Notes under the pieces: model-generated
Told to the model about the DNA's origin: nothing
The model's input: the letters and a program-made list of their open reading frames with translations, nothing else
The model's database searches: none
Assembly: GCF_003859805.1 (NCBI RefSeq)
Contig: NZ_RQZG01000001.1
Location: 372,001 to 436,000, forward strand
Direction of reading: 5' to 3'
Source of the DNA: Arachnia propionica
GTDB taxonomy: Bacteria; Actinomycetota; Actinomycetes; Propionibacteriales; Propionibacteriaceae
DNA length: 64,000 nt
Shown here: positions 30,109-44,058 of the stretch, in pieces
Layout: every line of letters begins with the position of its first letter
How positions within the stretch are numbered: the stretch's first letter is position 1
Translations under genes and position numbers: made by a program

Positions 30109-32658
30109 TCAGCGGATGACGGCGGCCAGCCCCATCTCCGCATCGCTGGACAGCAGCGGATGGGAGGGCACCACGCGGGCCAGGCAGCCGATCTGCCCGG
30201 CGTAACGGGTCGGGACCTCGGCCACGAACCGGGTCACCCCGTCCGCCTCGCTCACCGGGGTGGTCGGGTACTTCCGGATGTCGTGCAACTGGTCCTCGTT
30301 GTCCACGTCACCGAAGATCAACTGGACCGAGACGTCCTCGGCACGCAGCTGTCCCAGCCTGACGTCGACGGTGGGACGCAGCACCGTGCCGGTCTCCAGC
30401 TGCCCGGTCACCCCGACGTCGAGACCGACGACCTGCAACGAGTGCCAGTCCCGACGCACCCGCTCCTTCCAGCTCGCCAGGTCACCTGCGGCGGTGTGGT
30501 CGTCGAGCGCGTGCAGTGAGCTGGCCGCCGGGGTGTAGTACTCGGTGACGTAGTCACGCACCATGCGGGAGGCGAGGATCTCGGGGCCGAGCTCGGAGAT
30601 GCAGTCACGCATCATCTGCAGCCACTGAGCCGGGTTGCCGTTCGCGTCGAGCGTGTAGAACCGCGGGATGATCTCGTTCTCGATGATCGAGTAGAGGAAC
30701 TCCGCCTCGGCGGCGTCACGCTCCGCCTGGTCGGTGATGCCCTCGGCGGAGGGGATCTCCCACCCGAACTCGGGCGCGTAGAGCTCATCCCACCAGCCGT
30801 CCCGGATCGACAGGTTGGCTGCCCCGTTGAGCGCCGCCTTCATGCCGGAGGTACCGCAGGCCTCGTAGGGACGCAGCGGGTTGTTGACCCAGACGTCACA
30901 GCCCGGGTAGAGCGGGCGGGCCAACGACATGTCGTAGTCGGGGAGGAAGACGAGTCTGCCCCGCACGTCCTCCTGGTCGGAGAACTGCACCATCTCCTGG
31001 ATGAGCGACTTGCCGATGTTGTCCGCCGGGTGCGCCTTGCCCGCGATGACGATCTGGATCGGGGTCGTCGGGTGGTTCAGCAGTGCCTTGAGTCGTTCCG
31101 GATCCTTCAGCATCAGCGTCAACCGCTTGTAGGAGGCGCCGCGACGGGCGAAACCGAGGGTGAGCACCCGGGGATCGAGGGCGTCCCTGGTCCAGTCAGC
31201 CGGAATGCCGCGGGTCCGACAGGCCTCGGCGAGACGACCACGGGCCATCTGGATCATCGACGAGCGGAGCTGACGCTTCAGGCCCCAGAGGGTGTCGTCG
31301 TCGACCCGCTGGATCGCGGACCAGTCGTAGCCGTCGATGACCGTGCTCGAGTCATCGGTGTGCGCCTTGAGGATCTCGAGCAGCTCGGGATGGATCCAGG
31401 TCCGGTGATGGACACCGTTGGTCACCGAGCCGATCGGCACCTCCGTGGCGTCGAAGTCGGGCCACAACCCGTTGAACATGTCGCGGGAGACCTCGCCGTG
31501 CAGCTTCGAGACACCATTGGCACGCTGGCCCAGCCTGAGCCCCAGCACCGCCATGTTGTACCGACCCGGGTCCCCGCCCGGGTAGGTCTCGGAGCCGAAG
31601 GACATGATGGCATCCAGCGGCAGGCCCGGATCGAAGGAGGCGAACTGCCGTTCGATCAGCCCCTTGTCGAAACGGTCGATGCCCGCGGGGACTGGGGTGT
31701 GGGTGGTGAAGACCGTTCCTGCCCGGGTCAGTTCGATCGCGGTGGGCAGGTCGTGACCCTGCGAACGGTACTCACGGATCCGTTCGAAGTTGAGGAACCC
31801 GGCGTGCCCCTCGTTGCAGTGGTACACGTCCGGGCAGGCGTGCCCGGTGATCTCACAGTACCGACGCAGCGCACGGACACCGCCGATGCCGAGCACGACC
31901 TCCTGGGCCAGACGGTGTTCCGTGCCGCCACCGTAGAGTCGGTCGGTGATGTTGCGCGACTCCGGGTCGTTGTCGTCACGGTCGGTGTCGAGCATCAGCA
32001 GTGGGATCCGGCCGACGGAGGCCACCCAGATGGAGACGTTGACCTGCCGCCCGTAGACCTCGACGCTGATCTCCTGCGGATCACCCGCCTCGTCCACGAG
32101 GCGAGCGACGGGCATCTCGGTGGAGGACAGGATCGGGTAGCGTTCCTGCTGCCAACCGGCCGCGTTGAGGGACTGGCGGAAGTAGCCGTACCGGTAGAGC
32201 AGGCCGACCCCGATGAGGGGCAGGCCGAGATCGGATGCGGCCTTGAGGTGATCCCCGGCGAGGATTCCCAGTCCGCCGGAGTACTGCGGCAGCACCTGGG
32301 TGACACCGAACTCCGCGGAGAAGTAGCCGATGCCCTGCGGGGCGTCACCGTGCTCGGCCGCGTAGCGCTGGAACCACAGGTCGGCCGACAGGTAGTTCGT
32401 CAGGTCGTCGTGGAGGAGTTCCACGTTGCGGGCGAAGACCTTGTCGTTGCTGAGCTGCTGGACGCGCTCGGCGTCGACGGCGGACAGGAGCTTGAGGGGG
32501 TCCTCCCCGGTCTCCTCCCACAGTGACGGATCGATGGCCCGGAACAGGTCCCTGGTCTCCTGGTGCCATGACCAGCGGAGATTCTTGGCCAGTGCCTCGA
32601 GCTTCGAGATGCGCTCGGGCAGAACAGGATGAACGGTGAATCGTCGGAATGCACGCAC
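30109..32658 (-). CDS. glgP: Glycogen/alpha-glucan phosphorylase (GT35, DUF3417 N-terminus)
   Basis: An 849-residue alpha-glucan phosphorylase releasing glucose-1-phosphate. The N-terminal DUF3417 region (about 10-125, NLRWSWHQETRDLFRAID) marks the actinobacterial/archaeal short type. The catalytic core holds YFSAEFG, CNEGHAGF (about 284-291) and the phosphate/PLP region EACGTSGMKAALNGAANLSI (about 598-617, Lys for PLP). The GTG at 32658 was chosen because it lies six bases after a TATTTT -10 box and gives the normal N-terminus; upstream in-frame sequence runs into glgE. Divergent from glgE across 60 bases. Confidence 0.95.
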   Translation of the reverse strand: MRAFRRFTVHPVLPERISKLEALAKNLRWSWHQETRDLFRAIDPSLWEETGEDPLKLLSAVDAERVQQLSNDKVFARNVELLHDDLTNYLSADLWFQRYAAEHGDAPQGIGYFSAEFGVTQVLPQYSGGLGILAGDHLKAASDLGLPLIGVGLLYRYGYFRQSLNAAGWQQERYPILSSTEMPVARLVDEAGDPQEISVEVYGRQVNVSIWVASVGRIPLLMLDTDRDDNDPESRNITDRLYGGGTEHRLAQEVVLGIGGVRALRRYCEITGHACPDVYHCNEGHAGFLNFERIREYRSQGHDLPTAIELTRAGTVFTTHTPVPAGIDRFDKGLIERQFASFDPGLPLDAIMSFGSETYPGGDPGRYNMAVLGLRLGQRANGVSKLHGEVSRDMFNGLWPDFDATEVPIGSVTNGVHHRTWIHPELLEILKAHTDDSSTVIDGYDWSAIQRVDDDTLWGLKRQLRSSMIQMARGRLAEACRTRGIPADWTRDALDPRVLTLGFARRGASYKRLTLMLKDPERLKALLNHPTTPIQIVIAGKAHPADNIGKSLIQEMVQFSDQEDVRGRLVFLPDYDMSLARPLYPGCDVWVNNPLRPYEACGTSGMKAALNGAANLSIRDGWWDELYAPEFGWEIPSAEGITDQAERDAAEAEFLYSIIENEIIPRFYTLDANGNPAQWLQMMRDCISELGPEILASRMVRDYVTEYYTPAASSLHALDDHTAAGDLASWKERVRRDWHSLQVVGLDVGVTGQLETGTVLRPTVDVRLGQLRAEDVSVQLIFGDVDNEDQLHDIRKYPTTPVSEADGVTRFVAEVPTRYAGQIGCLARVVPSHPLLSSDAEMGLAAVIR

Positions 32659-32664
32659 GGGGCA

Positions 32665-32670
32665 AAAATA
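32665..32670 (-). promoter_or_regulatory. -10 box for leaderless glgP start
   Basis: TATTTT on the minus strand ends six bases before the GTG at 32658. Confidence 0.7.
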
Positions 32671-32705
32671 CAGTGCGTCCTCTCCCCACGCGAAACCTGA
32701 CGAAG

Positions 32706-32711
32706 TAGTCT
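32706..32711 (+). promoter_or_regulatory. -10 box for leaderless glgE start
   Basis: TAGTCT ends seven bases before the GTG at 32719. With the glgP -10 at 32665-32670, it makes a compact divergent leaderless promoter pair in the 60-base glgP/glgE gap. Confidence 0.7.
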
Positions 32712-32718
32712 GTGACCC

Positions 32719-34719
32719 GTGAATGACGCCACACCGACCCGAGCCCATCTGCGCCGAACGGAGGGGGGATTCGGTCGAATCCCCGTCACCGGGGTCACCC
32801 CGGTCATCGAATCCGGGGCCTACCCGGTCAAGGCCGTGGCCCACGAGCGACTGCTGATCCGTGCGAACGTGTTCCGGGAGGGCCACGACGCCGTCAACGC
32901 CTCGGTGATCCTCACCTCTCCGCAGGGCACACAGCGACGCATCGACATGACCCAGGTGGAACCGCTCGGGCTCGACATCTGGGAGGCGTACGTCAGGATG
33001 GCCGCAGAGGGCGAGTGGACCTTCCGCATCGAGGGGTGGTCCGATCCGTGGGCGACCTGGTTGCACCACACGGAGACGAAGCTCCCCCTCGGCATGGACG
33101 TCGACCTGCTCTGCATGGAGGGTCGCGAGCTGCTCCACCTCGCTGCCGAGGAGGCCGACCGCAACGGGGTGCTGCCCGCGGCACACCTGTTGCGGGCAGC
33201 CGCGGAGTCGTTGACCCCGAGCACCCCGGTCGAGGAGATCCTCGAGCTGATCGAATCCCGTCCGATCAAACGTGCGATGGCCCGGTTCGGACCACGGGAG
33301 TGCATCAGCCCCACCAAGGAGTACCCGATCCTGGTGGAACGGCGCCGTGCACTCTACTCGTCATGGTACGAGTTCTTCCCCCGTTCCCAGGGTGCGTGGC
33401 AGGACGGCACCGGGAGGTGGCACTCCGGCGGCTTCGACTCCTCCCACGAACGCCTCGAGGCCGCGGCGGCGATGGGCTTCGACGTGGTCTACGTCCCCCC
33501 GATCCATCCCATCGGCCAGGCCTTCAAGAAGGGACGCAACAACTCCCTCGACGCCCGCCCCGAGGACCCCGGTTCCCCATGGGCCATCGGGTCCGACGAA
33601 GGTGGCCATGACGCGATCCACCCCGATCTCGGTGACCTCGACGCCTTCGGGCGTTTCGTGGCCAAGGCCCGTTCCCTGGGGCTGGAGGTGGCCCTCGACC
33701 TGGCCCTGCAGGCCTCCCCGGACCATCCGTGGGTCAAGGAGCATCCCGAGTGGTTCACCACCCGGCTGGACGGCACCATCGCCTATGCCGAGAACCCCCC
33801 GAAGAAGTACCAGGACATCTATCCGCTGAACTTCGACAACGACCCCGAGGGCCTCTACGAGGAGGTGCTGCGGATCGTGCGGTTGTGGATCGAGCGTGGC
33901 GTGACGATCTTCCGGGTGGACAACCCGCACACCAAGCCCGTCGAGTTCTGGGACTGGCTGATCCGTCAGGTCCGACAGACCGATCCTGAGGTGATCTTCC
34001 TCGCGGAGGCCTTCACCAAGCCACAGATGATGGCCGCGCTGGGCAAGGTCGGTTTCCAACAGAGCTACACCTACTTCACATGGCGGGTGACCAAGTGGGA
34101 ACTCACCGAGTACCTCACCGAGTTGAGCCGGGACATGGCTGCCTACTACCGGCCGAACTTCTTCGTCAACACCCCCGACATCAATCCTTTCCACCTGCAG
34201 TCCGGGAATCCCGCGATCTTCGCCATCCGTGCCATTCTCGCGGCAACCCTGTCCCCGTCCTGGGGGGTCTACTCCGGGTTCGAGCTGTTCGAACACGAGG
34301 CGAACGCCCCCGGGCGTGAGGAGTACCTGGACTCCGAGAAGTACGAGTACCGTCCGCGGGACTTCCAGGCCGAGCCGAACCTGGGCCTGCTGCTCGGCCG
34401 CCTCAACTCCATCCGGGACCGACACCCCAGTCTGCAACAGCTGCGCGACATCCACTTCCACCACGCCCCCCACGACCAGGTGATCGTCTACAGCAAGCAC
34501 GACGGCGACGACGTGGTGCTGGTGGTCTGCTCGCTCGACCCCGATCACACCGTCACCTCCGACGTGTACCTCGACATGGCCGCCCTCGGTCTGACCCCCG
34601 GGCAGCAGATCCGGGTCCATGACGAGTTGACCGGCGAGACCTACAGCTGGGGGGAACGCAACTGGATCCAGCTGCGTCCCGACCGTCCCGCACACATCTT
34701 CCACGTCACGGCTGGCTGA
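32719..34719 (+). CDS. glgE: Alpha-1,4-glucan:maltose-1-phosphate maltosyltransferase GlgE
   Basis: A 666-residue GH13_3 enzyme that extends alpha-glucan with maltosyl units from maltose-1-phosphate. N-terminal domains (about 20-200) precede the barrel with YVPPIHPIGQAFKKGRNNSL (about 256-275). The nucleophile Asp is in FRVDNPHTKP (about 396-405), the acid/base Glu in FLAEAFTKP (about 427-435), and a C-terminal beta domain ends the protein. The length is typical for GlgE. The start is leaderless (GTG seven bases after a -10). It overlaps maltokinase by one base. Together with maltokinase and GlgB it forms the GlgE pathway of glycogen synthesis. Confidence 0.96.
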   Translation: MNDATPTRAHLRRTEGGFGRIPVTGVTPVIESGAYPVKAVAHERLLIRANVFREGHDAVNASVILTSPQGTQRRIDMTQVEPLGLDIWEAYVRMAAEGEWTFRIEGWSDPWATWLHHTETKLPLGMDVDLLCMEGRELLHLAAEEADRNGVLPAAHLLRAAAESLTPSTPVEEILELIESRPIKRAMARFGPRECISPTKEYPILVERRRALYSSWYEFFPRSQGAWQDGTGRWHSGGFDSSHERLEAAAAMGFDVVYVPPIHPIGQAFKKGRNNSLDARPEDPGSPWAIGSDEGGHDAIHPDLGDLDAFGRFVAKARSLGLEVALDLALQASPDHPWVKEHPEWFTTRLDGTIAYAENPPKKYQDIYPLNFDNDPEGLYEEVLRIVRLWIERGVTIFRVDNPHTKPVEFWDWLIRQVRQTDPEVIFLAEAFTKPQMMAALGKVGFQQSYTYFTWRVTKWELTEYLTELSRDMAAYYRPNFFVNTPDINPFHLQSGNPAIFAIRAILAATLSPSWGVYSGFELFEHEANAPGREEYLDSEKYEYRPRDFQAEPNLGLLLGRLNSIRDRHPSLQQLRDIHFHHAPHDQVIVYSKHDGDDVVLVVCSLDPDHTVTSDVYLDMAALGLTPGQQIRVHDELTGETYSWGERNWIQLRPDRPAHIFHVTAG

Positions 34720-35909
34720 TGCCCACCCGAGCCGACCTCACCGCCCACCTCACCCGCCTCGCAGGTGAGGCCCGGTGGTTCTCCGGCCGCACCCGCGACT
34801 GGGAGATGACCCGCGTCGAACTGCTGCCCTGGATCGCAGAACCCGCCGGGCAACGCCCCGGGGTCCGCAGTGCGGTGCTTCACATCCGCTACGCCGACGG
34901 CGACACGGAGCGGTACCACGTGCCACTGGCCTTCCACGCGGGAGGCGGCGAGCCCGTCGAGGCCGTCGACGACCCCGAGGCAATGTCGATCCTGGTGGAG
35001 TGTCTCGCCGAGGAGCGGGACGGGTTCCAGCCGAGACAGGACATTCCCCTGGGGCTGCCCCCCAGACGGTACGGCGGGGAGCAGTCGAACACCTCCGTGT
35101 TCTTCGGGGACGTCCTCATCGCCAAGGTGTTCCGCCGCCTCGAGGAGGGGCGCAACCTGGACGTCGAACTGCACGAGGTCCTGGCGGATTCCGGCGCGGT
35201 GGCCAAGCTCTTCGGCACCTGGAGCCATGGCGGAGTCGATCTCGGGGTCTTCCTGGAGGCCCTGCCCGATCCACGCGACGGGTTCGTCGTCGCCTGCGAG
35301 GCGGCCGAGGGAGACCGGCCGTTCACCGACGAGGCCCGCGCCCTGGGTGAACAGCTGGCCCTGGTCCACCGGTTGCTGGCTGAACGGCTGCCCACCGCCG
35401 TCATCGACGGCGATGCCCTGTCCCGGACCTTCGTCGCCCGCTTCGAGGCAGCCCTGCGGGAGGCCCCCCTGCTCGAGCAGTTCCGCTCCTCGGTGCTCAC
35501 CTGCTTCACCGAGGTGCGCGGGATGCGGCTGGTCGCCCAGCGGATCCACGGCGACTGCCACCTGGGGCAGGCCCTGCTGACCGGCGGGCAGTGGCGTTAC
35601 GTGGACTTCGAGGGTGAGCCGTTGAAGTCCCTCGCTGAGCGACGACGACCTGATTCCCCCTGTCGGGACGTGGCCGGGATGCTCCGCTCGTTCGACTACG
35701 CGGCCCACATCGGTGGCGGCGAGGAGTCCTGGAGGTTGGGAGCACGTGCGGCCTTCATCGAGGGCTGTGCCGCGACCGGACGGTTCCCGTCCGAACTGCT
35801 CCTGGCCTACGAGGTGGACAAAGCCGTCTACGAGGTCGTCTATGAATCCAGGAACCGACCCGCATTCCTCCCGGTGCCGGTAGATTGTCTCGCAAGGATC
35901 AACCACTGA
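34719..35909 (+). CDS. mak: Maltokinase (Mak/Pep2)
   Basis: A 396-residue maltokinase of the aminoglycoside-phosphotransferase-like fold, making maltose-1-phosphate for GlgE. The N-terminal cap holds ARWFSGRTRD (about 18-27). The catalytic loop is RIHGDCHLGQALL (about 276-288), the metal-binding DFEGEP follows (about 298-303), and PDSPCRDVAGMLRSFDYAA (about 311-329) is a strong Mak signature. It is a standalone gene, not fused to TreS. Start and glgE stop overlap as TGATG. Confidence 0.94.
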   Translation: MPTRADLTAHLTRLAGEARWFSGRTRDWEMTRVELLPWIAEPAGQRPGVRSAVLHIRYADGDTERYHVPLAFHAGGGEPVEAVDDPEAMSILVECLAEERDGFQPRQDIPLGLPPRRYGGEQSNTSVFFGDVLIAKVFRRLEEGRNLDVELHEVLADSGAVAKLFGTWSHGGVDLGVFLEALPDPRDGFVVACEAAEGDRPFTDEARALGEQLALVHRLLAERLPTAVIDGDALSRTFVARFEAALREAPLLEQFRSSVLTCFTEVRGMRLVAQRIHGDCHLGQALLTGGQWRYVDFEGEPLKSLAERRRPDSPCRDVAGMLRSFDYAAHIGGGEESWRLGARAAFIEGCAATGRFPSELLLAYEVDKAVYEVVYESRNRPAFLPVPVDCLARINH

Positions 35910-35918
35910 GGAGCTGAG

Positions 35919-37814
35919 ATGGCGCATGACCCGTTTGGCGGACTGACAGGCTGGGATCTGGAAGGATTCCACACGGGTGGCGACACGGAGCTCTGGCGCC
36001 GTCTCGGTTCCTTCACGTGCACCGTCGAGGACAGCGAGCGTGGCCCGATCCAGGGGGTGCGTTTCGCGGTGTGGGCCCCGAACGCGCAGGCGGTCCAGGT
36101 GATCGGTGACTTCAACTGGTGGACCGGGGACCCGATGCAGCTCATCCCCGGTTCCGGGGTCTGGGCGACCTTCATCGAGGGAATCGGCGAGGGCACCCTG
36201 TACAAGTTCCGTATCCAGGGCCCCGACGGCACCTGGCACGAGAAGGTCGACCCGATGGCCCGCTTCTCCGAGCAGGCCCCGGCCAACGCCTCCATCGTCT
36301 ACGAGTCGAGGTACATCTGGTCCGACGACGACTGGATGACCAGGCGGGCACGGTCGCAACCCCACAAGGAACCGATCAGCATCTACGAGCTCCATCTGGG
36401 GGGCTGGCGCCGCGGCAAGAGCTACCTGGACCTGGCCGAGGAACTGGTCTCCTACGTCACCTGGCAGGGTTACACCCATGTCGAGTTCATGCCATTGGCC
36501 GAGCACCCGTTCGACCCCAGCTGGGGCTATCAGGTGACCGGGTACTTCTCCCCCACCAGCCGGTTCGGCAAACCTGATGACCTGCGGTACCTCATCGACC
36601 GGCTCCACCAGGCCGGCATCGGTGTGATCATGGACTGGGTTCCCGGTCATTTCCCGAAGGACGACTGGGCGCTCGGGCGCTTCGACGGCACCGCCCTCTA
36701 CGAGCATGCGGATCCCCGCCAGGGGGAGCACATGGACTGGGGGACCTACATCTTCAACTACGGCCGCAACGAGGTGAAGAGTTTCCTCATCTCCAACGCG
36801 TTGTACTGGCTGACGGAGTTCCATGTCGACGGGCTTCGGGTCGACGCGGTGGCCTCCATGCTCTACCTCGACTACTCACGCGAGGAGGGACAGTGGATCC
36901 CCAACGAGCACGGCGGCCGGGAGAACCTCGAGGCCATCGACTTCCTGCGCTACGTCAACCGGCATCTCCACGAGCGTCATCCGGGAGTGATGATGATCGC
37001 GGAGGAGTCGACGAGCTTCCCCGGCGTGACCCGACCGGTGCACGAGGGAGGGCTCGGTTTCGGCTTCAAGTGGAACATGGGATGGATGAACGACTCCCTG
37101 CGTTATCTGGCGCTCGACCCGGTCTACCGCCAGTACGAGCACAACCTGTTGACCTTCGCGATGGTCTACCAGTACTCGGAGAACTTCATCCTGCCGATCA
37201 GCCACGACGAGGTGGTCCACGGCAAGGGGTCCATGATCAACAAGGTGCCCCAGGACGACTGGCGCAAGTTCGCGACGTTGCGCGCCTTCTACTCGTTCAT
37301 GTGGAGTTTCCCCGGCAAGCAGCTGATCTTCATGGGTTCCGAGTTCGGGCAGCGTCCTGAGTTCAACGAGTCCCGCAGCCTGGAGTGGTGGGTCTCGGAA
37401 CTGTGGGGTCACGGCGGCCTGCAACGGCTGTTCCGCGACCTCAACCACCTCTACGTCGCCCTTCCTGCGCTCCACGAACTGGACAGCAGCCCGGACGGTT
37501 TCACCTGGATCAACGCTGATGACAACGGGCACAACCTGTTGAGCTGGGTACGACACGACTCCGGGGGAAACCATGTCGCCTGCTTCACCAACTTCTCCCC
37601 CGAACCGGTGACCGACTACGAGGTGGGACTGCCCGTCGCCGGGGAGTGGGACGAGATCCTCAACACCGATTCCTCGGTCTACGACGGTTCCGGTGAGTTC
37701 GGCAACCTGGGTCAGGTCACGGCCACCACGGCCCCGTGGGGACACTTCCCTGCCAGTGCGCGGGTGACGATCCCCCCGTTGGCGTCCATCTGGCTGCGGC
37801 GTTCTGCGACGTGA
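35919..37814 (+). CDS. glgB: 1,4-alpha-glucan branching enzyme GlgB
   Basis: A 631-residue GH13 branching enzyme introducing alpha-1,6 links. One CBM48 (about 40-125, RFAVWAPNAQAVQVIGDFNW) precedes the barrel. Motifs: DWVPGHFPKD (about 240-249), HVDGLRVDAVASMLYLDYSR (nucleophile Asp about 312), MIAEESTSFPGV (Glu about 366) and LPISHDEVVHGKGS (about 426-439). It is about 100 residues shorter than enzymes with two N-terminal beta domains, so it is the single-CBM48 type. The start follows GAGGAG. Nine bases separate it from mak, so it is in the same operon. Confidence 0.96.
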   Translation: MAHDPFGGLTGWDLEGFHTGGDTELWRRLGSFTCTVEDSERGPIQGVRFAVWAPNAQAVQVIGDFNWWTGDPMQLIPGSGVWATFIEGIGEGTLYKFRIQGPDGTWHEKVDPMARFSEQAPANASIVYESRYIWSDDDWMTRRARSQPHKEPISIYELHLGGWRRGKSYLDLAEELVSYVTWQGYTHVEFMPLAEHPFDPSWGYQVTGYFSPTSRFGKPDDLRYLIDRLHQAGIGVIMDWVPGHFPKDDWALGRFDGTALYEHADPRQGEHMDWGTYIFNYGRNEVKSFLISNALYWLTEFHVDGLRVDAVASMLYLDYSREEGQWIPNEHGGRENLEAIDFLRYVNRHLHERHPGVMMIAEESTSFPGVTRPVHEGGLGFGFKWNMGWMNDSLRYLALDPVYRQYEHNLLTFAMVYQYSENFILPISHDEVVHGKGSMINKVPQDDWRKFATLRAFYSFMWSFPGKQLIFMGSEFGQRPEFNESRSLEWWVSELWGHGGLQRLFRDLNHLYVALPALHELDSSPDGFTWINADDNGHNLLSWVRHDSGGNHVACFTNFSPEPVTDYEVGLPVAGEWDEILNTDSSVYDGSGEFGNLGQVTATTAPWGHFPASARVTIPPLASIWLRRSAT

Positions 37815-38611
37815 GCGAGTTCAAGGTCCAGGTCGACATCGCCCAGGGCATCGGCCACCTGCGCTGGGGTGAGCAGCTCACCGATGCCCAGACCCTGGAG
37901 CGTGCGGTCTCCCTGGCCGCCGACGACGCGATCATCGCGCACAACCTGCGTCGCCTGCAGTGCGACATCCCCGCGACGGATCGGGTGGCGATGCAGGCCC
38001 TGCACCGGTGCGGATTCCGCCGGGAGGGGCGCCTGCGTTCGGCCATCCTGACGCCGGACGGCCAGCTCGTCGACGTGTTGATCTACGCCCGGTTGGCGGT
38101 CGACCCGGTCTACGGTCCACACGGTTTCTCCGGGGTGATGAACTCGGTGCTGCCGACGAAACGGGTCATCGCCCACGTCGTGTTCCGGGACTCCCGTGGC
38201 CGGGTGCTGCTCACCGAACCGACCTACAAGCAGGACTGGGAGCTGCCGGGTGGGGTCGTCGACCCGGGCGAGTCCCCCAGACTGGGTGCCCAGCGTGAGG
38301 TGCTCGAGGAGATCGGGCTCGAATGCGCGCTGGGCCAGCCCGTCCTGGTGGACTGGATGCCCCCGCACCTCGGCTGGGGGGACGCCATCGAGTTCATCTA
38401 CGACGGTGGCGTGCTCCCGGACCACGTGGCCGGGGCCCTGGCCCCACGGGACCTGGAACTGCGTGCAGTCCACTGGGTGCCCCGTGAGGAGCTCCCCACT
38501 CGTGTCAGCGAGCTGTCCCACAGACGGCTCGAGCTGACTCTCTCCGGGGAGTCGGGGGCCACGGAGAACGGCCTGTTCCAAGGACCCGGGAGCAACTGGT
38601 CGACAGGGTGA
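37811..38611 (+). CDS. Fusion of a GNAT-like half domain and a Nudix hydrolase
   Basis: A 266-residue protein. Residues 1 to about 100 resemble the C-terminal half of a GNAT acetyltransferase of RimJ/L type (ALHRCGFRREGRLRSAILTP about 61-80 and DVLIYARL), but no complete acetyl-CoA loop is visible. Residues about 115-250 are a Nudix domain with a perfect box, GVVDPGE then REVLEEIGL (G-x5-E-x7-REVLEE-x-GL; about 149-171). The GTG overlaps the glgB stop as GTGA, putting it at the end of the glgE operon. The Nudix substrate is unknown; nucleotide-sugar or oxidised nucleotide hydrolysis are possibilities. Confidence 0.75.
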   Translation: MSEFKVQVDIAQGIGHLRWGEQLTDAQTLERAVSLAADDAIIAHNLRRLQCDIPATDRVAMQALHRCGFRREGRLRSAILTPDGQLVDVLIYARLAVDPVYGPHGFSGVMNSVLPTKRVIAHVVFRDSRGRVLLTEPTYKQDWELPGGVVDPGESPRLGAQREVLEEIGLECALGQPVLVDWMPPHLGWGDAIEFIYDGGVLPDHVAGALAPRDLELRAVHWVPREELPTRVSELSHRRLELTLSGESGATENGLFQGPGSNWSTG

Positions 38612-38632: not shown

Positions 38633-38661
38633 TTGACGTCAGGTACTCGTGGCCCTAGTCT
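38633..38661 (+). promoter_or_regulatory. Sigma70-type promoter of the ROK-MocA fusion operon
   Basis: TTGACG (38633-38638), 17 bases, then TAGTCT (38656-38661): a near-consensus promoter in the 103-base gap after the Nudix gene. A small ACCGG/CCGGT stem (38616-38630) followed by TCTT just before it may be a weak terminator for the glgE operon. Confidence 0.8.
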
Positions 38662-38676
38662 CGACTCATTCATATG

Positions 38677-38694
38677 GATACTTGCGTAAGTATC
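38677..38694. promoter_or_regulatory. Palindromic operator in the leader of the ROK-MocA fusion gene
   Basis: GATACTT-GCGT-AAGTATC, a 7-4-7 perfect inverted repeat, sits just downstream of the predicted transcript start and 20 bases before the ATG. It is the probable binding site of the ROK repressor domain encoded right after it (inference). Confidence 0.7.
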
Positions 38695-38714
38695 TTGCGG
38701 AATCGAGGTCAGAG

Positions 38715-40994
38715 ATGCCCCCTGTGGTGGCCGGTCGAGCTGAACGTCTCGCGAGCGTGTACGACGCGCTTCTGGCGACCCCGAGTGCGACCGTGAGTTC
38801 GCTCATGAAGGTGACCCAGCTCTCCCGCCCCACCGTCACGGGCCTGCTCGAGGTGCTGCGTGACCAGGGGCTGGTGCACAGTCTGGGGGCGGAAGGAGGG
38901 GTGGGGCGTCCGGCCGAGGTGTGGGCCACGGCTCCCTCGGCCGGCGTGGTGATCGGGGTCGACCTGCTGCACAGCAGCCTGTTGGCGGCAACGGCTCAGC
39001 TGGACGGCACGGTCACCGGTGTCGACCTGCGCCAGGACGTGAGCCTCGACGCGAGGCAGCGTCTGGATCTTCTCATCGAGGTCATCAACCAGCAGATCGC
39101 GCGGCATCAGCCGTCCCCGGTCCATGCCATCGTGATCTCCACCACCGGCACCGTCGACCCCGAGGGGTGCATCAAACGGTCCGATGCCGTCCAGGAGTGG
39201 GAGTCCTTCCCACTGGGAGCACGTCTGACGGAACGGCTCGGCCTCCCGGTCCGGGTGGAGAACGACGTGAATGCCGCCGCGTTCGGGGAGTTCGCGATCC
39301 GGTGCAGCGACCACAGCCTCACCTCCTCGGCCGACCTCCTGTTCATCGGTCTGTCACGAGGCATCGTGACCGGACTGGTGCTCGGCGGACAGCTCCACCG
39401 CGGCAGCCATCATGACGCCGGTGAGGTGGGGCTGGTCATCACCGAGGACGAGACCCTGTTCCCGGGACAGTTGAGGCGTGCGGCCGAGACCATCGGGGCC
39501 GTCTCCGCGGTTCTCGACCCGGCCACCATCGTGGTGGCCCTGACCCATGGCGAGATCCCGGGGGCACTGGATGAGATCAGGACGCACCTCGCGACCCTGC
39601 GTTCCTCGAGCGCTGCCGCTCTCAACCTCGAGGTCCCCCGCCTCGGCCAGGCCTCCGCGACGGTCGGGGCGCTGACCCTCGCCCTCCAGGACGCACGTCA
39701 GAAACTGCTCGGCCATCTCACGGCTCGGATCCCCTGTCCGAGCAATCTCACCCTGCTCACCCACGTCACCGCGAAAGGCAGCCACGTCCCGATGCCCTCC
39801 TCAGCAACCACCCAGCACCGGCCCGAACTCAGGATCGGCGTGGTGGGGGTCGGTGCCCGCTCAGACATCGCCAAGCACTTCGAACTGCCCGGTCGCAACT
39901 GCCGGATCACCGCCGTCGCCGATCCCCATCCGAATGCGTCACAACGAATCCTGGACCGGCTCGGCCGCGACGACATCGCCCTGACCCGTTCCGTGACCGA
40001 GCTCATCGGCACCGGCATCGATGCCGCACTGGTGACCTCCCCCGATGACACACACGCCACGGTGACCTGCGAACTCCTGCGTGCCGGGGTCCCGGTCTAC
40101 CTGGAGAAACCCATGGCGATCCACACCGCGGACGCCATCGAGATCCTCACCACCGCCCACGAGACCGGCACCAAACTCTACGTCGGCCACAACATGAGGC
40201 ACATGAACGTGGTCCGCTCGATGCGGGACCTCATCCGCAAGGGGGAGATCGGCGAGGTGAAGGCCATCTGGTGCCGACACTTCGTCGGTCACGGTGGTGA
40301 CTACTACTTCAAGGACTGGCACGCCACCCGTGAGCACGGCACCGGTCTGCTCCTGCAGAAGGCGGCCCATGACCTCGATGTCATGCACTGGCTGGCCGAT
40401 TCCCACACCACCCGGGTCACCGCGATGGGCGGGCTCACCCTCTACGACCGGGTCACTGACAGGAGGGACCACAGCGACCAGCTCATGTGGGAGTGGTTCT
40501 CGATGGACAACTGGCCACCGCTGTCACAACAGGGTCTCAACCCCGTCATCGACGTCGAGGACCTCTCCATGATGCTGATGCAGATGGAGTCCGGGGTCTT
40601 CGCCTCGTACCAGCAGTGCCACTACACCCCCGACTACTGGCGCAACTACACCGTGATCGGGACCGAGGGTCGGATCGAGAACTTCGGGGACTACGAGGGC
40701 GGACACATCAAACTGTGGCGACATCGCTCCGACTACGACCCCGACGGTGACGCCACCTACCCCATCACCGGTGACGCGGGTGGCCACGGGGACGCCGACG
40801 TCCTGACCACCGGTGAGTTCATCGACTTCGTGACCGACGGCACGCCCACGGACACCTCGCCCCTGGGCGCCTACCATGCCGTCGCGGCGGCCATCGCGGC
40901 CACGGACTCCCTGCGTGACGGCTCCACGCCACGAGACGTCCCCACCCTCGACCCCGAAGTCGTGCAGTACTTCGAGAACAACCAGGTCAAGTGA
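38715..40994 (+). CDS. ROK-family repressor fused to a Gfo/Idh/MocA dehydrogenase
   Basis: A single open frame of 759 residues with two unrelated parts. Residues about 8-60 form a winged helix-turn-helix (SLMKVTQLSRPTVTGLLEVL). Residues about 75-350 form a ROK sugar-binding domain with VENDVNAAAFGEFA (about 180-193) and HHDAGEVGLV, but without the CxCGxxGC zinc site and without a kinase-type DxGGT motif. After a linker, residues about 372-759 form a Gfo/Idh/MocA oxidoreductase with Rossmann loop RIGVVGVGAR, the EKP motif YLEKPMAIHT (about 462-471) and HDLDVMHW (about 555-562). The ATG at 38715 follows a GAGG site. An internal ATG at 39792 with a weak AAAGG upstream could start the enzyme alone. 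It heads a sugar ABC operon, so it probably senses and oxidises a related sugar. Confidence 0.88.
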   Translation: MPPVVAGRAERLASVYDALLATPSATVSSLMKVTQLSRPTVTGLLEVLRDQGLVHSLGAEGGVGRPAEVWATAPSAGVVIGVDLLHSSLLAATAQLDGTVTGVDLRQDVSLDARQRLDLLIEVINQQIARHQPSPVHAIVISTTGTVDPEGCIKRSDAVQEWESFPLGARLTERLGLPVRVENDVNAAAFGEFAIRCSDHSLTSSADLLFIGLSRGIVTGLVLGGQLHRGSHHDAGEVGLVITEDETLFPGQLRRAAETIGAVSAVLDPATIVVALTHGEIPGALDEIRTHLATLRSSSAAALNLEVPRLGQASATVGALTLALQDARQKLLGHLTARIPCPSNLTLLTHVTAKGSHVPMPSSATTQHRPELRIGVVGVGARSDIAKHFELPGRNCRITAVADPHPNASQRILDRLGRDDIALTRSVTELIGTGIDAALVTSPDDTHATVTCELLRAGVPVYLEKPMAIHTADAIEILTTAHETGTKLYVGHNMRHMNVVRSMRDLIRKGEIGEVKAIWCRHFVGHGGDYYFKDWHATREHGTGLLLQKAAHDLDVMHWLADSHTTRVTAMGGLTLYDRVTDRRDHSDQLMWEWFSMDNWPPLSQQGLNPVIDVEDLSMMLMQMESGVFASYQQCHYTPDYWRNYTVIGTEGRIENFGDYEGGHIKLWRHRSDYDPDGDATYPITGDAGGHGDADVLTTGEFIDFVTDGTPTDTSPLGAYHAVAAAIAATDSLRDGSTPRDVPTLDPEVVQYFENNQVK

Positions 40995-41017: not shown

Positions 41018-42280
41018 ATGAAGCGTCGTACCTTCCTGGCGGCAGCCGCAGTGCTCGGTGCCGCCACGGGGCTGAGCGCCTGCGGCAACCAGAACACCAG
41101 CTCCTCCAACGACGGTGACCTCACCAAGGAGACCGAGGCCAGCCTGACCCTGTTCTACTGGGACAAGGCCCAGACCCCCACCGTGGAGGCCAACATCAAG
41201 GCCTTCAACGAGGAGTACCCGAACATCACGGTCACCCCGTCGGTGGCGGTCTACGACGACTACTGGACGAAGCTGCGCGCCCAGGCCGAGGGCGAGCAGC
41301 TGCCTGACGTGTTCTGGATGAACGGGCCGAACTTCCAGCTCTACGCCTCCAACGGGATGCTGGCCGACCTCACCGACCTCGGTGAGGTCGCCTGGGACAG
41401 CTACCCGAAGGCGCTGGTGGACCTGTACAGCCTGGACGGCAAGAAGTACGGCGTCCCGAAGGACTACGACACCATCGCCTGCTTCGTCAACAAGAAGGTG
41501 TTCGAGCAGGCGGGCATCGCCATCCCGACCGACGGCTGGACCTGGGACGAGCACCGGGAGGCCATCAAGGCCGTCAAGGCCTCCGGGGCCACCTGGGGCG
41601 CGGTGATCGAGGTCACCGCCAACCAGACCGGCTACTACAACACGATCCACCAGGCCGGTGGCCACGTCCTCAAGGACGGCAGGTCCGGCTTCGACGATCC
41701 CAAGGCCATCGAGGGCATCCAGTACCTGAAGGATCTCCTGGACGACGGTTCGATCCCCTCCCCCCAGATCGTCGCCGACTCCAAGGCCGATGCCCTGTTC
41801 ATGAACGGTGACGTCGGCCTCCTGTGGGCCGGTTCCTGGATGGTCAAGCCGCTGCGCGAGAAGTTCGGCGACGACGAGCTCATCGTGGTGCCGCTGCCGA
41901 AGAAGGAGAAGGAGGCCACCATCATCCACGGCCTGTCCTACGCGGCTGCCGCCAAGTCGAAGAACCTGGCGGCCGCGAAGGCCCTGGTCAGGTTCATGAC
42001 GGACAAGAAGGCCAACGAGACCGAGGCCAGCAACGGCACTGCCATCCCGGCCTTCACCGGAACCCAGCAGGTCTGGCTGGACCAGGTTCCGGCCTGGAAG
42101 CTCGACGTGTTCACCAAGGCCGCGGAGAACTACGCCGTGCCGTATCCGGTGTCGAAGAACACCACTGCCTGGACCGAGAAGGAGACGGTCCTGAAGTCCG
42201 TGTTCACCGGCGAGGCCGAGATCACCGCCGTGTGCACCCAGCTGGCCGCCGACGTGAACGCGTTGCTCGAGAAGGAGTGA
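41018..42280 (+). CDS. Sugar ABC transporter substrate-binding lipoprotein, family 1
   Basis: A 420-residue family 1 solute-binding protein. The signal peptide MKRRTFLAAAAVLGAATGLS ends in a lipobox LSAC (Cys 21-22), with an RR pair that may allow Tat export. Mature-protein motifs include LTLFYWDKAQTPTVEANIKA and LPDVFWMNGP (about 88-97), both typical. The ATG at 41018 was chosen for its AAGGAG site six bases upstream and the signal peptide; a GTG at 40991 overlapping the fusion-gene stop is an alternative. The substrate is presumably the sugar handled by the ROK-MocA protein. Confidence 0.92.
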   Translation: MKRRTFLAAAAVLGAATGLSACGNQNTSSSNDGDLTKETEASLTLFYWDKAQTPTVEANIKAFNEEYPNITVTPSVAVYDDYWTKLRAQAEGEQLPDVFWMNGPNFQLYASNGMLADLTDLGEVAWDSYPKALVDLYSLDGKKYGVPKDYDTIACFVNKKVFEQAGIAIPTDGWTWDEHREAIKAVKASGATWGAVIEVTANQTGYYNTIHQAGGHVLKDGRSGFDDPKAIEGIQYLKDLLDDGSIPSPQIVADSKADALFMNGDVGLLWAGSWMVKPLREKFGDDELIVVPLPKKEKEATIIHGLSYAAAAKSKNLAAAKALVRFMTDKKANETEASNGTAIPAFTGTQQVWLDQVPAWKLDVFTKAAENYAVPYPVSKNTTAWTEKETVLKSVFTGEAEITAVCTQLAADVNALLEKE

Positions 42281-42284
42281 CCTG

Positions 42285-43220
42285 ATGGCCGTCGACAGGA
42301 GCGGTGGCACCTCGTCGCCCTCCTCGCGACGCCGCAGCAACCCGATGTCAGTGGGGGCCTGGCCCCTGCTGTTCATCGGGCCCCTGCTGCTCGGCGTCCT
42401 GCTGTTCTACTACTACCCGATCCTCGGCAACTTCTGGACCTCACTGAACAAGGCCAACGCCTTCGGTGGGGATCCGAGGTTCGTCGGATTCGACAACTAC
42501 GCGGAGCTGTTCTCGCGTCCCACGCTGCCGTCCGCGACGGTGAACACGCTCATCTACACCGCGGTGGTGCTGCTCGCGGTACCGATCTCGGTGGGCATCG
42601 CCTCACTGATGGAGCTGCCCGGGTTGAAGGGACGCACCTTCTACCGCATCGCCTTCTTCATGCCCTACCTGGCCATGCCGGTCGCGATCGTTCAGGTGTG
42701 GCGGCTGTTCTACAACGGCACCTTCGGCATCCTCAACCAGGTCCTGCGCTTCCTCGGGGTCCAGGACCCGCCGTTCTGGTTGTCGACTCCCGGACTCACG
42801 ATCCTCGCGACGGCGGTCTTCGGGATCTGGGCCTCGATCGGGTTCAACGTCATCATCCTGTCGGCAGGTCTCAAGTCGATCCCGAAGGAACTCTACGAGG
42901 CGGCCTCGATCGATGGCGCCACCGCATGGCACCAGTTCAGGAGCATCACGGTGCCGTTGCTGACGCCGTCGATCTTCTTCCTCATGATCATGCAGGCCAT
43001 CGGCGGCTTCCAGCTGTTCGACTCGCTGTACGCGATGCTCGGACCGAACAACCCTGCTGCGGAGCAGTCGAGGTCCTTGGTCTCGCTGTTCTACCAGGAG
43101 GCCTTCGTCACCCAGAACCGTGGTGTCGGGGCCGCCGTCACGATCGTGATCCTGCTGCTCGTCGGCCTGGTCACCGCGCTCCAGTTCTGGGGCCAGAAGA
43201 AGTGGGTGCACTATGTCTGA
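42285..43220 (+). CDS. Sugar ABC transporter permease, MalF type
   Basis: A 311-residue permease with six hydrophobic spans and the EAA loop KELYEAASIDGATAWHQFRS (about 204-223), followed by the C-terminal QFWGQKKWVHY tail. It starts four bases after the binding-protein gene and overlaps the next permease by eight bases. A polar, serine/arginine-rich N-terminus (about 1-20) precedes the first span. Confidence 0.93.
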   Translation: MAVDRSGGTSSPSSRRRSNPMSVGAWPLLFIGPLLLGVLLFYYYPILGNFWTSLNKANAFGGDPRFVGFDNYAELFSRPTLPSATVNTLIYTAVVLLAVPISVGIASLMELPGLKGRTFYRIAFFMPYLAMPVAIVQVWRLFYNGTFGILNQVLRFLGVQDPPFWLSTPGLTILATAVFGIWASIGFNVIILSAGLKSIPKELYEAASIDGATAWHQFRSITVPLLTPSIFFLMIMQAIGGFQLFDSLYAMLGPNNPAAEQSRSLVSLFYQEAFVTQNRGVGAAVTIVILLLVGLVTALQFWGQKKWVHYV

Positions 43221-44058
43221 GAAGAGACCGGGGGTCTGGCGGCAGCAACTGCGCTACTGGCCCGCCCATGTGATCCTGTTCCTCGGCGGGTTGACCATGA
43301 TCTTCCCGTTCGCCTGGCAGCTGATGATGTCGATCTCGACGAACGTGGAGATCCAGGCGGTGCCACCGAGCTTCCTGCCCGCCGAACCGCAGTGGGGCAA
43401 CTACGCGAAGGTGTTCGAGACGATTCCCTTCATGTCCCAGTTCTGGGTCTCGGTCCTCATCACGGTGCTCCGCACGGCGGCCCAGCTGGTGCTGTGCTCC
43501 ATGGCAGGTTACGCGTTCGCCCGGATGCAGTTCAAGGGACGCGGGATCCTCTTCGGGCTGCTGCTGGCGATCCTCATGATCCCGAGCCAGGCCTTCCTGA
43601 TCACCCAGTACCAGATCATCAAGGGGTTCAACCTGTTGGAGACGCCGTGGGGCATCGTGCTGCCCGGCATGTTCTCCGCCTTCGGGACCTTCCTGATGAG
43701 GCAGGCCTTCATGACGCTGCCGAAGGAACTCGAGGAGGCGGCTCGCCTCGATGGCTGCAACCCGTGGCAGACCTTCTGGAAGGTCGTGCTGCCCCTGGTC
43801 AAACCCAGCCTGTTCGCCGTGGCCATCACGACGGTGCTGTGGAGCTGGAACGACCTGCTGTGGCCGTTGATCGTCACCAGCCGTGAGGACAACATGCCGC
43901 TGAGCGTCGGCATCGCGACCCTCGCAGGTCAGTACAGCGCGGACTGGAACCTCATGATGGCGGCCTCCGTCATGGCGATGGCCCCGATCTTCGTGCTGTT
44001 CTTCGCCCTGCAGCGTCGGGTCATCGAGGGCCTTGCCACCTCCGGCCTGAAGGGCTGA
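43213..44058 (+). CDS. Sugar ABC transporter permease, MalG type
   Basis: A 281-residue permease with six hydrophobic spans and the EAA loop KELEEAARLDGCNPWQTFWK (about 175-194), ending in the conserved RRVIEGLATSGLKG tail. It overlaps the MalF-type gene by eight bases. Like the other two sugar systems in the window, this operon has no ATPase gene. Confidence 0.93.
   Translation: MSEKRPGVWRQQLRYWPAHVILFLGGLTMIFPFAWQLMMSISTNVEIQAVPPSFLPAEPQWGNYAKVFETIPFMSQFWVSVLITVLRTAAQLVLCSMAGYAFARMQFKGRGILFGLLLAILMIPSQAFLITQYQIIKGFNLLETPWGIVLPGMFSAFGTFLMRQAFMTLPKELEEAARLDGCNPWQTFWKVVLPLVKPSLFAVAITTVLWSWNDLLWPLIVTSREDNMPLSVGIATLAGQYSADWNLMMAASVMAMAPIFVLFFALQRRVIEGLATSGLKG

Follow-up and report, generated by a model that had tools for sequence, protein, structure and literature searches.

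A single open frame of Arachnia propionica, running uninterrupted for 759 codons (38715-40994, + strand), joins a winged helix, a ROK domain, a linker, and a Gfo/Idh/MocA dehydrogenase within one predicted protein, and this fusion represents a conserved family which extends beyond the genome in question, with further fusions seen elsewhere. (Here ‘the window’ is the whole stretch of DNA that was analysed, 64,000 nucleotides in length, and L numbers designate loci.) The reading towards which we lean, and which we consider reasonably probable, is that a ROK-type repressor gene and a Gfo/Idh/MocA dehydrogenase gene, as overlapping neighbours within a sugar ABC operon, lost the boundary between them, and that within the resulting fused gene the second gene's start and its ribosome binding site were retained. 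The long protein would bind a palindrome at 38677-38694, repressing its own operon, and free dehydrogenase would be translated from the ATG at 39792 on the same message. What this most likely amounts to is an autoregulated sugar-uptake operon, one in which the repressor carries the pathway's enzyme and extra free enzyme is supplied from the inner start. A protein with both roles, as repressor of its own operon and as oxidant of the sugar taken up, would fit the anatomy, and annotation as a single 759-aa protein would, if this is true, hide a second product. The features involved are as follows.

38633..38661, + strand: putative promoter, TTGACG-17-TAGTCT (read from the sequence; strict scan negative)
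38677..38694, + strand: palindrome GATACTT-GCGT-AAGTATC (GATACTTGCGTAAGTATC), putative operator, just 3' of the promoter-like boxes
38705..38708, + strand: GAGG, ribosome binding site of the full-length start (from the sequence; recurs in L009-L013)
38715..40994, + strand: fused gene, 759 aa (open frame and Pfam domains)
38751..38882, + strand: winged helix-turn-helix, residues about 13-56 (weakly scored by Pfam; covered in alignments to ROK regulator structures)
38946..39734, + strand: ROK domain, shortened and without zinc motif, residues about 78-340 (Pfam, PDB, alignment)
39774..39779, + strand: AAAGGC, internal Shine-Dalgarno-like run, codons 354-355 (codon choice, anti-SD pairing, conservation)
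39792..39794, + strand: ATG, codon 360, predicted inner start of the free Gfo enzyme (conservation; further relatives)
39828..40925, + strand: Gfo/Idh/MocA enzyme, residues 372-737 (Pfam)
40104..40112, + strand: EKP catalytic motif, residues 464-466 (alignment, active-site table)
40368..40370, + strand: His552 of LLLQKAAHDLDVMHW, expected active-site histidine (alignment, active-site table)
41018..42280, + strand: sugar ABC transporter substrate-binding lipoprotein (start by reading, the mechanical frame running from GTG 40991; Pfam)
42285..43220, + strand: ABC permease (Pfam)
43213..44058, + strand: ABC permease (Pfam)

The fused frame and its occurrence

That both families share one 759-codon frame without a stop, and that this frame heads an ABC sugar operon, had been proposed in the first-pass annotation, and on both points it was right: the frame is open, Pfam recognises both families within it, and the fused gene is the first in an order of substrate-binding protein, permease, and permease (likewise by Pfam) that recurs in relatives. 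HTH_5 is found at residues 19-56, at 22.4 bits where 22 is the cut-off, with TrmB (residues 13-55) falling under its own Pfam cut-off, and the ROK domain is found at residues 117-246, at 72.3 bits against a cut-off of 22.9. A winged helix followed by a ROK domain, that is, the arrangement of the repressor branch of ROK proteins, thus is present, with the helix-turn-helix score near its cut-off. The enzyme half possesses the Rossmann domain (GFO_IDH_MocA, residues 372-492, 66.4 bits) as well as C-terminal Gfo domains (inside residues 500-737, 75.6 and 64.0 bits) that together define Gfo/Idh/MocA proteins. The mechanical gene call, beginning at GTG 38649, is not needed, and the true start instead is likely ATG 38715, given GAGG at 38705-38708 and a GAGGTC...ATG layout which recurs in L009-L013.

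An assembly or sequencing error joining two genes, an explanation of negligible probability, is ruled out by the 23 of 198 family genomes which possess at least one full-length fused frame without a stop (residue ≤18 to ≥757 of the query), and by named isolates of five genera, i.e., Arachnia, Tessaracoccus, Cutibacterium, Acidipropionibacterium, and Actinomyces (these being among the best 80 of 177 confirmed stretches). Matches at 1e-60 were obtained in 56 of the 198 family genomes and, mostly to the Gfo half only, in 33 of 394 genomes sampled across the class; at 1e-40, 34 of 60 relatives matched. Rows dropped from the comparisons that follow were identical duplicates, L001 (which is the window), and L003 (a fragment of L002), and L018 was retained among 24 ‘window-type’ fused genes though the N-part of its ROK sits in another frame.

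A published account of a ROK-Gfo fusion was not found among the open-licence PMC papers listed in literature searches. Two of those papers mention the two families as separate genes, adjoining in one of them, on pneumococcus: SP1324-SP1325 of Streptococcus pneumoniae are a ROK family protein and a Gfo/Idh/MocA oxidoreductase, adjacent but separate, by sialic acid genes (PMC3534514).

A probable inner start within the linker

It had been suggested as well that an internal ATG, at 39792, could serve as the start of the enzyme alone, and of the earlier interpretation this is the best supported part, as based on codon choice, pairing, and conservation. In the linker of most window-type genes a purine run, either AAAGG, AGAGG, or AAGGG, is followed by CAC or CAT and that in turn by a start codon. 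Among the 24 window-type fused genes, which are related, some closely, and in which the site was spotted by eye before testing, residue 360 combines a start codon with anti-SD pairing of ≤-8 kcal/mol in 21, a combination seen in 3 of 24 in the best of 27 other columns (each with at least 8 start codons). Since all of the columns come from the same genes, with the same history, kinship does not explain the prominence of column 360, at which ATG is found in 19 genes, TTG in 2, GTG in 1, and other codons in 2 (L020 and L044, in which the fusion is present but the inner site has no start codon).

Codon usage just before this start is unusual also. Gly355 is encoded by GGA in 17 of 24 genes, ranking first of 49 glycine columns (the next reaching 37% of 19 rows), and codon 354 is AAA or AGA in 18 of 21, ranking first of 43 lysine/arginine columns (next, 22%). 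Where codon 354 specifies arginine it is always AGA (4/4), a codon making up 2-5% of arginine codons in those same genes. RNA structure at the inner start is low, with on average 86% of same-gene windows being at least as structured. Of fourteen further loci, nine match genes already used, one (L170) is a split gene, and four (L158, L162, L165, and L169) are additional fused genes, all four of which retain the inner start.

Run and start codon are retained even in loci possessing damaged ROK halves. These are L124, in which the ROK half is deleted; L049, with an in-frame stop in ROK; L059, with a frameshift; L129, which is split and decaying, and in which the Gfo half also ends early (its match stops at 688, with the genome 60% complete); and the already mentioned L018, inner-site pairing of which is only -7.4. 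The Gfo gene of L124 (8000-9400) is open and 88% identical, in a neighbourhood like that of the window, with the ROK half and the ABC genes gone.

Other observations speak against its use. The spacing from GGC or GGA to ATG, at 12 bases, is long for a Shine-Dalgarno sequence, pairing energy places the window's inner site seventh of 44 in-frame start codons, and the inner site is first by pairing energy in only 9 of 24 genes. The inner start is absent in seven paralogue rows and in the Gfo-only rows L061, L126, and L127, which are nested in the fused clade. In addition, Gly355 and His357 are invariant in 24 of 24 genes, i.e., including L020 and L044, which indicates that some of the linker is conserved for the sake of its peptide. 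The frame nonetheless does contain a conserved start codon with a Shine-Dalgarno-like run before it, and as these are conserved at the nucleotide level, with use of rare codons, one gene probably makes both repressor-enzyme and free enzyme.

Upstream elements, operon and origin

The ‘strong promoter’ that had been claimed for the fused gene is not supported, as a strict sigma-70 scan found zero promoters. As read by eye, TTGACG-17-TAGTCT matches at 5/6 and 3/6 positions, and comparable promoter-like boxes, spaced by 17-18, occur at the equivalent place in L009-L013. The palindrome is located just where the first-pass annotation had it, at 38677-38694. Within the 64,000-nt window, GATACTTGCGTAAGTATC is the sole match at ≤3 mismatches, with 0.12 expected and at least one match in 12 of 100 shuffles, and it is the single exact match in the 3.4 Mb genome; genome-wide at ≤2 mismatches, a reversed-pattern control equalled the pattern in number of matches. 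The second-best palindrome of the same genome, GGTACTTCGAGAAGTACC, has 2 mismatches and lies at G000 C46:34712-34729 (L137).

A palindrome is found in the matching position upstream of the L009-L013 fused genes, with inverted-repeat shuffle p values of 0.015 (window), 0.000 (L010), 0.025 (L011), and 0.010 (L013), but above 0.05 for L009 (0.085) and L012 (0.055). Over all 31 fused rows p is below 0.05 in 11, i.e., the window, L010, L011, L013, L015, L044, L048, L053, L054, and the paralogues L121 and L123 (these last two elsewhere positioned), and the test fails in 20, with the upstream stretch of L018 having been cut before an arbitrary frame start. Because palindromes vary by branch, and just 11 of 31 rows pass, an operator as a family-wide motif was rejected, and the putative operator is proposed for the window and near orthologues only.

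Upstream genes of the window, over 30109-38611, are a phosphorylase with DUF3417 (minus strand), a maltokinase-cap protein, a CBM48/alpha-amylase protein (branching-enzyme-like by reading), and a NUDIX gene. In Cutibacterium (L046, L047, L050, and L053) the operon extends, by reading, to L-threonine 3-dehydrogenase-like and glycine C-acetyltransferase-like, that is, tdh-kbl-like, genes. The fused paralogue of the window's own genome (locus L118, G000 C5:62000-81900) adjoins what by reading is a GH36-like alpha-galactosidase gene as well as a second sugar ABC transporter. Matches and neighbours do not point to any one substrate, as PDB matches of the Gfo half and of the binding protein are broad and neighbours differ between loci.

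Unfused counterparts are found in Agromyces, Leifsonia, Leucobacter, Actinokineospora, Nakamurella, and Arthrobacter loci, where a ROK gene precedes a Gfo gene, in most cases with a binding protein and permease downstream (genes of these loci having been called with a home-made caller). Taking the first candidate start, adjacent unfused ROK/Gfo pairs overlap by 4-8 bases in 10 of 12 cases, the exceptions being L067 and L074, with gaps of about 140. Such pairs carry a ribosome-binding run near the end of the ROK gene, an example being AAAGGACTTCGAATGGTGA of Agromyces L066 and L072.

In a Gfo tree of 121 rows, built by a quick method, the 24 window-type fused genes plus 7 paralogues group together on an unstarred branch with support 85, which takes in Gfo-only, split, and ROK-less rows as well. 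The fusions L147 and L148, both with ROK and Gfo domains by Pfam, sit instead among unfused kin, past starred branches. The quick tree thus suggests three fusion events, at least two of them forced by well-supported, i.e., starred, branches, as those branches require one change for the pair L147/L148. An AU test against a single clade of all fused rows gave 2.97e-103, on the quick tree and with the group named after the fusions were known; as that value is extreme, and the grouping post hoc, we rely instead on tree placement and on differing ROK halves.

The two halves, rival readings and known systems

Gfo/Idh/MocA enzymes carry an EKP motif along with an active-site histidine, which in the window protein we take from the family to be His552, and the window protein has both. 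Inositol dehydrogenase has an aspartate four residues before its active-site histidine; in the window, as in aligned unfused kin, that residue is glutamine. Active-site columns are intact in all 9 tabulated window-type genes, and the aligned unfused kin have EKP or DKP plus the histidine. pN/pS is 0.17-0.18 for the Gfo half versus 0.35-0.44 for the ROK half in comparisons of the window with L009 and L010, with other window-type pairs higher, to 0.44 (Gfo) and 0.81 (ROK) in L016-L020. Identity to the window over 23 other window-type rows is 31-69% for the ROK half and 66-86% for the Gfo half.

ROK proteins characteristically possess a zinc motif, CxCGxxGCxE, and a histidine motif, ExGH. Zinc motif and ExGH histidine both are absent in 31 of 31 fused rows, and absent too in 11 of 12 comparison ROKs, which consist of 9 unfused partners, the split L059, the non-adjacent L128, and L094, the last of which does have these features and is not a neighbour of a Gfo gene. 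Since the 9 unfused partners lack them, the loss predates fusion and gives no sign that sensing moved to the Gfo half upon fusion. The window-type ROK half also is about 40 residues shorter, in its second half, than those of unfused partners. Given the missing motifs, we call it a divergent ROK-domain protein rather than a typical ROK repressor.

The window's own genome encodes a second fused paralogue on another contig (772-codon open frame; 39% over the best stretch). In it (L002) and in its sister, L125, EKP has been replaced by SAP and ADP, and some 11 residues in the region of YYFKDWHA have been lost, with the Gfo Rossmann domain recognised by Pfam in L002 and not in L125. Both Gfo halves still are open in frame, with pN/pS between them of 0.59, a weaker constraint that is compatible with a non-catalytic role as well as with slow decay. 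As this paralogue lost its active site and yet stays in frame, an enzyme half may be becoming a sensor. Of the other paralogues, L119, L120, and L123 look to be active, and L121 and L122 have aspartate in place of the histidine.

How else might the fusion be understood? It could be a PutA-like bifunctional repressor-enzyme, a single polypeptide in which KGxHxxM is conserved because the protein requires it and the inner start goes unused. Invariance of Gly355 and His357, even absent a start codon, is consistent with this, as are the seven paralogue rows that are fused without an inner start, but left unexplained are the choice of rare AGA, of AAA, and of GGA, the TTG or GTG in 3 of 5 genes without ATG, and a run kept in L124 despite loss of its ROK half; we consider it to be rather unlikely. 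Unlikely too is that the fusion merely fixes co-production of what are independent proteins, with the ROK half sensing its own ligand and the enzyme without effect on regulation. Adjacent unfused pairs, faster divergence of the ROK half, and odd ROK features common to unfused partners all are in keeping with that view. Against it may be set the multiple origins of the fusion and the shortening of the window-type ROK half, neither of which is proof of coupling.

Improbable, in turn, is that the Gfo half serves mainly as the repressor's ligand sensor, i.e., as a recruited enzyme domain for which catalysis is incidental. While the open but catalytically altered L002 and L125 point in that direction, the 0.59 between them may be slow decay, window-type catalytic columns are intact, purifying selection acts more strongly on the Gfo half than on the ROK half, and it is the Gfo half that L124, on losing ROK, keeps. 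In the favoured reading, i.e., a fusion of overlapping neighbours with the inner start kept, DNA binding may in addition respond to substrate or NAD(H) at the enzyme half, and the two products may join in common oligomers by way of their Gfo halves. A more elaborate version, offered tentatively as a possibility about which we have real doubts, is that one frame gives rise to both repressor-dehydrogenase and free dehydrogenase, that these assemble with one another via the Gfo half, and that repression of the uptake operon is set by long-to-short ratio along with substrate or NAD(H) occupancy, with the dead enzyme half of the paralogue being a pure sensor. If true, there would exist a route from operon neighbours to a metabolite-reading repressor, i.e., overlap, fusion, retention of an inner start, and, in one branch, loss of catalysis. 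As adjacent, fused, split, and dead-enzyme states all are found in living relatives, every step is open to testing.

Of known arrangements the nearest is that of PutA, alike in outline though built from other families. Trifunctional PutA, an autogenous repressor, carries an N-terminal DNA-binding domain on a dehydrogenase (PMC5293562), and the fused protein, judging from its domains, similarly has a DNA-binding domain and an enzyme in one chain. PutA, however, employs a ribbon-helix-helix rather than winged helix plus ROK, is a flavoenzyme that switches to the membrane, and is described in the abstract of that paper without mention of an inner start. With ROK repressors of the Mlc, XylR, and NagC type the fused protein shares, by Pfam, NCBIfam, and PDB matches, a helix-turn-helix and ROK fold, but it is without CxCGxxGCxE and ExGH, has a shorter second half, and carries an enzyme.

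The best PDB match of the Gfo half, a distant one (8.7e-17), is SqgA (8qc2/8qc3), an NAD-dependent sulfoquinovosidase (PMC10755693). Rossmann domain, EKP, and C-terminal domain are held in common with SqgA and with Gfo/Idh/MocA enzymes generally, the difference being fusion here to a regulator. As no NCBIfam model reaches its cut-off on the enzyme half, no substrate is predicted. Lastly, bacterial N-terminal proteoform pairs are two products of one frame that arise via alternative in-frame starts (PMC11005335), as is predicted here. In the present case, however, the inner start falls at the boundary of two once-separate genes, and would part a regulator plus enzyme from the enzyme alone.
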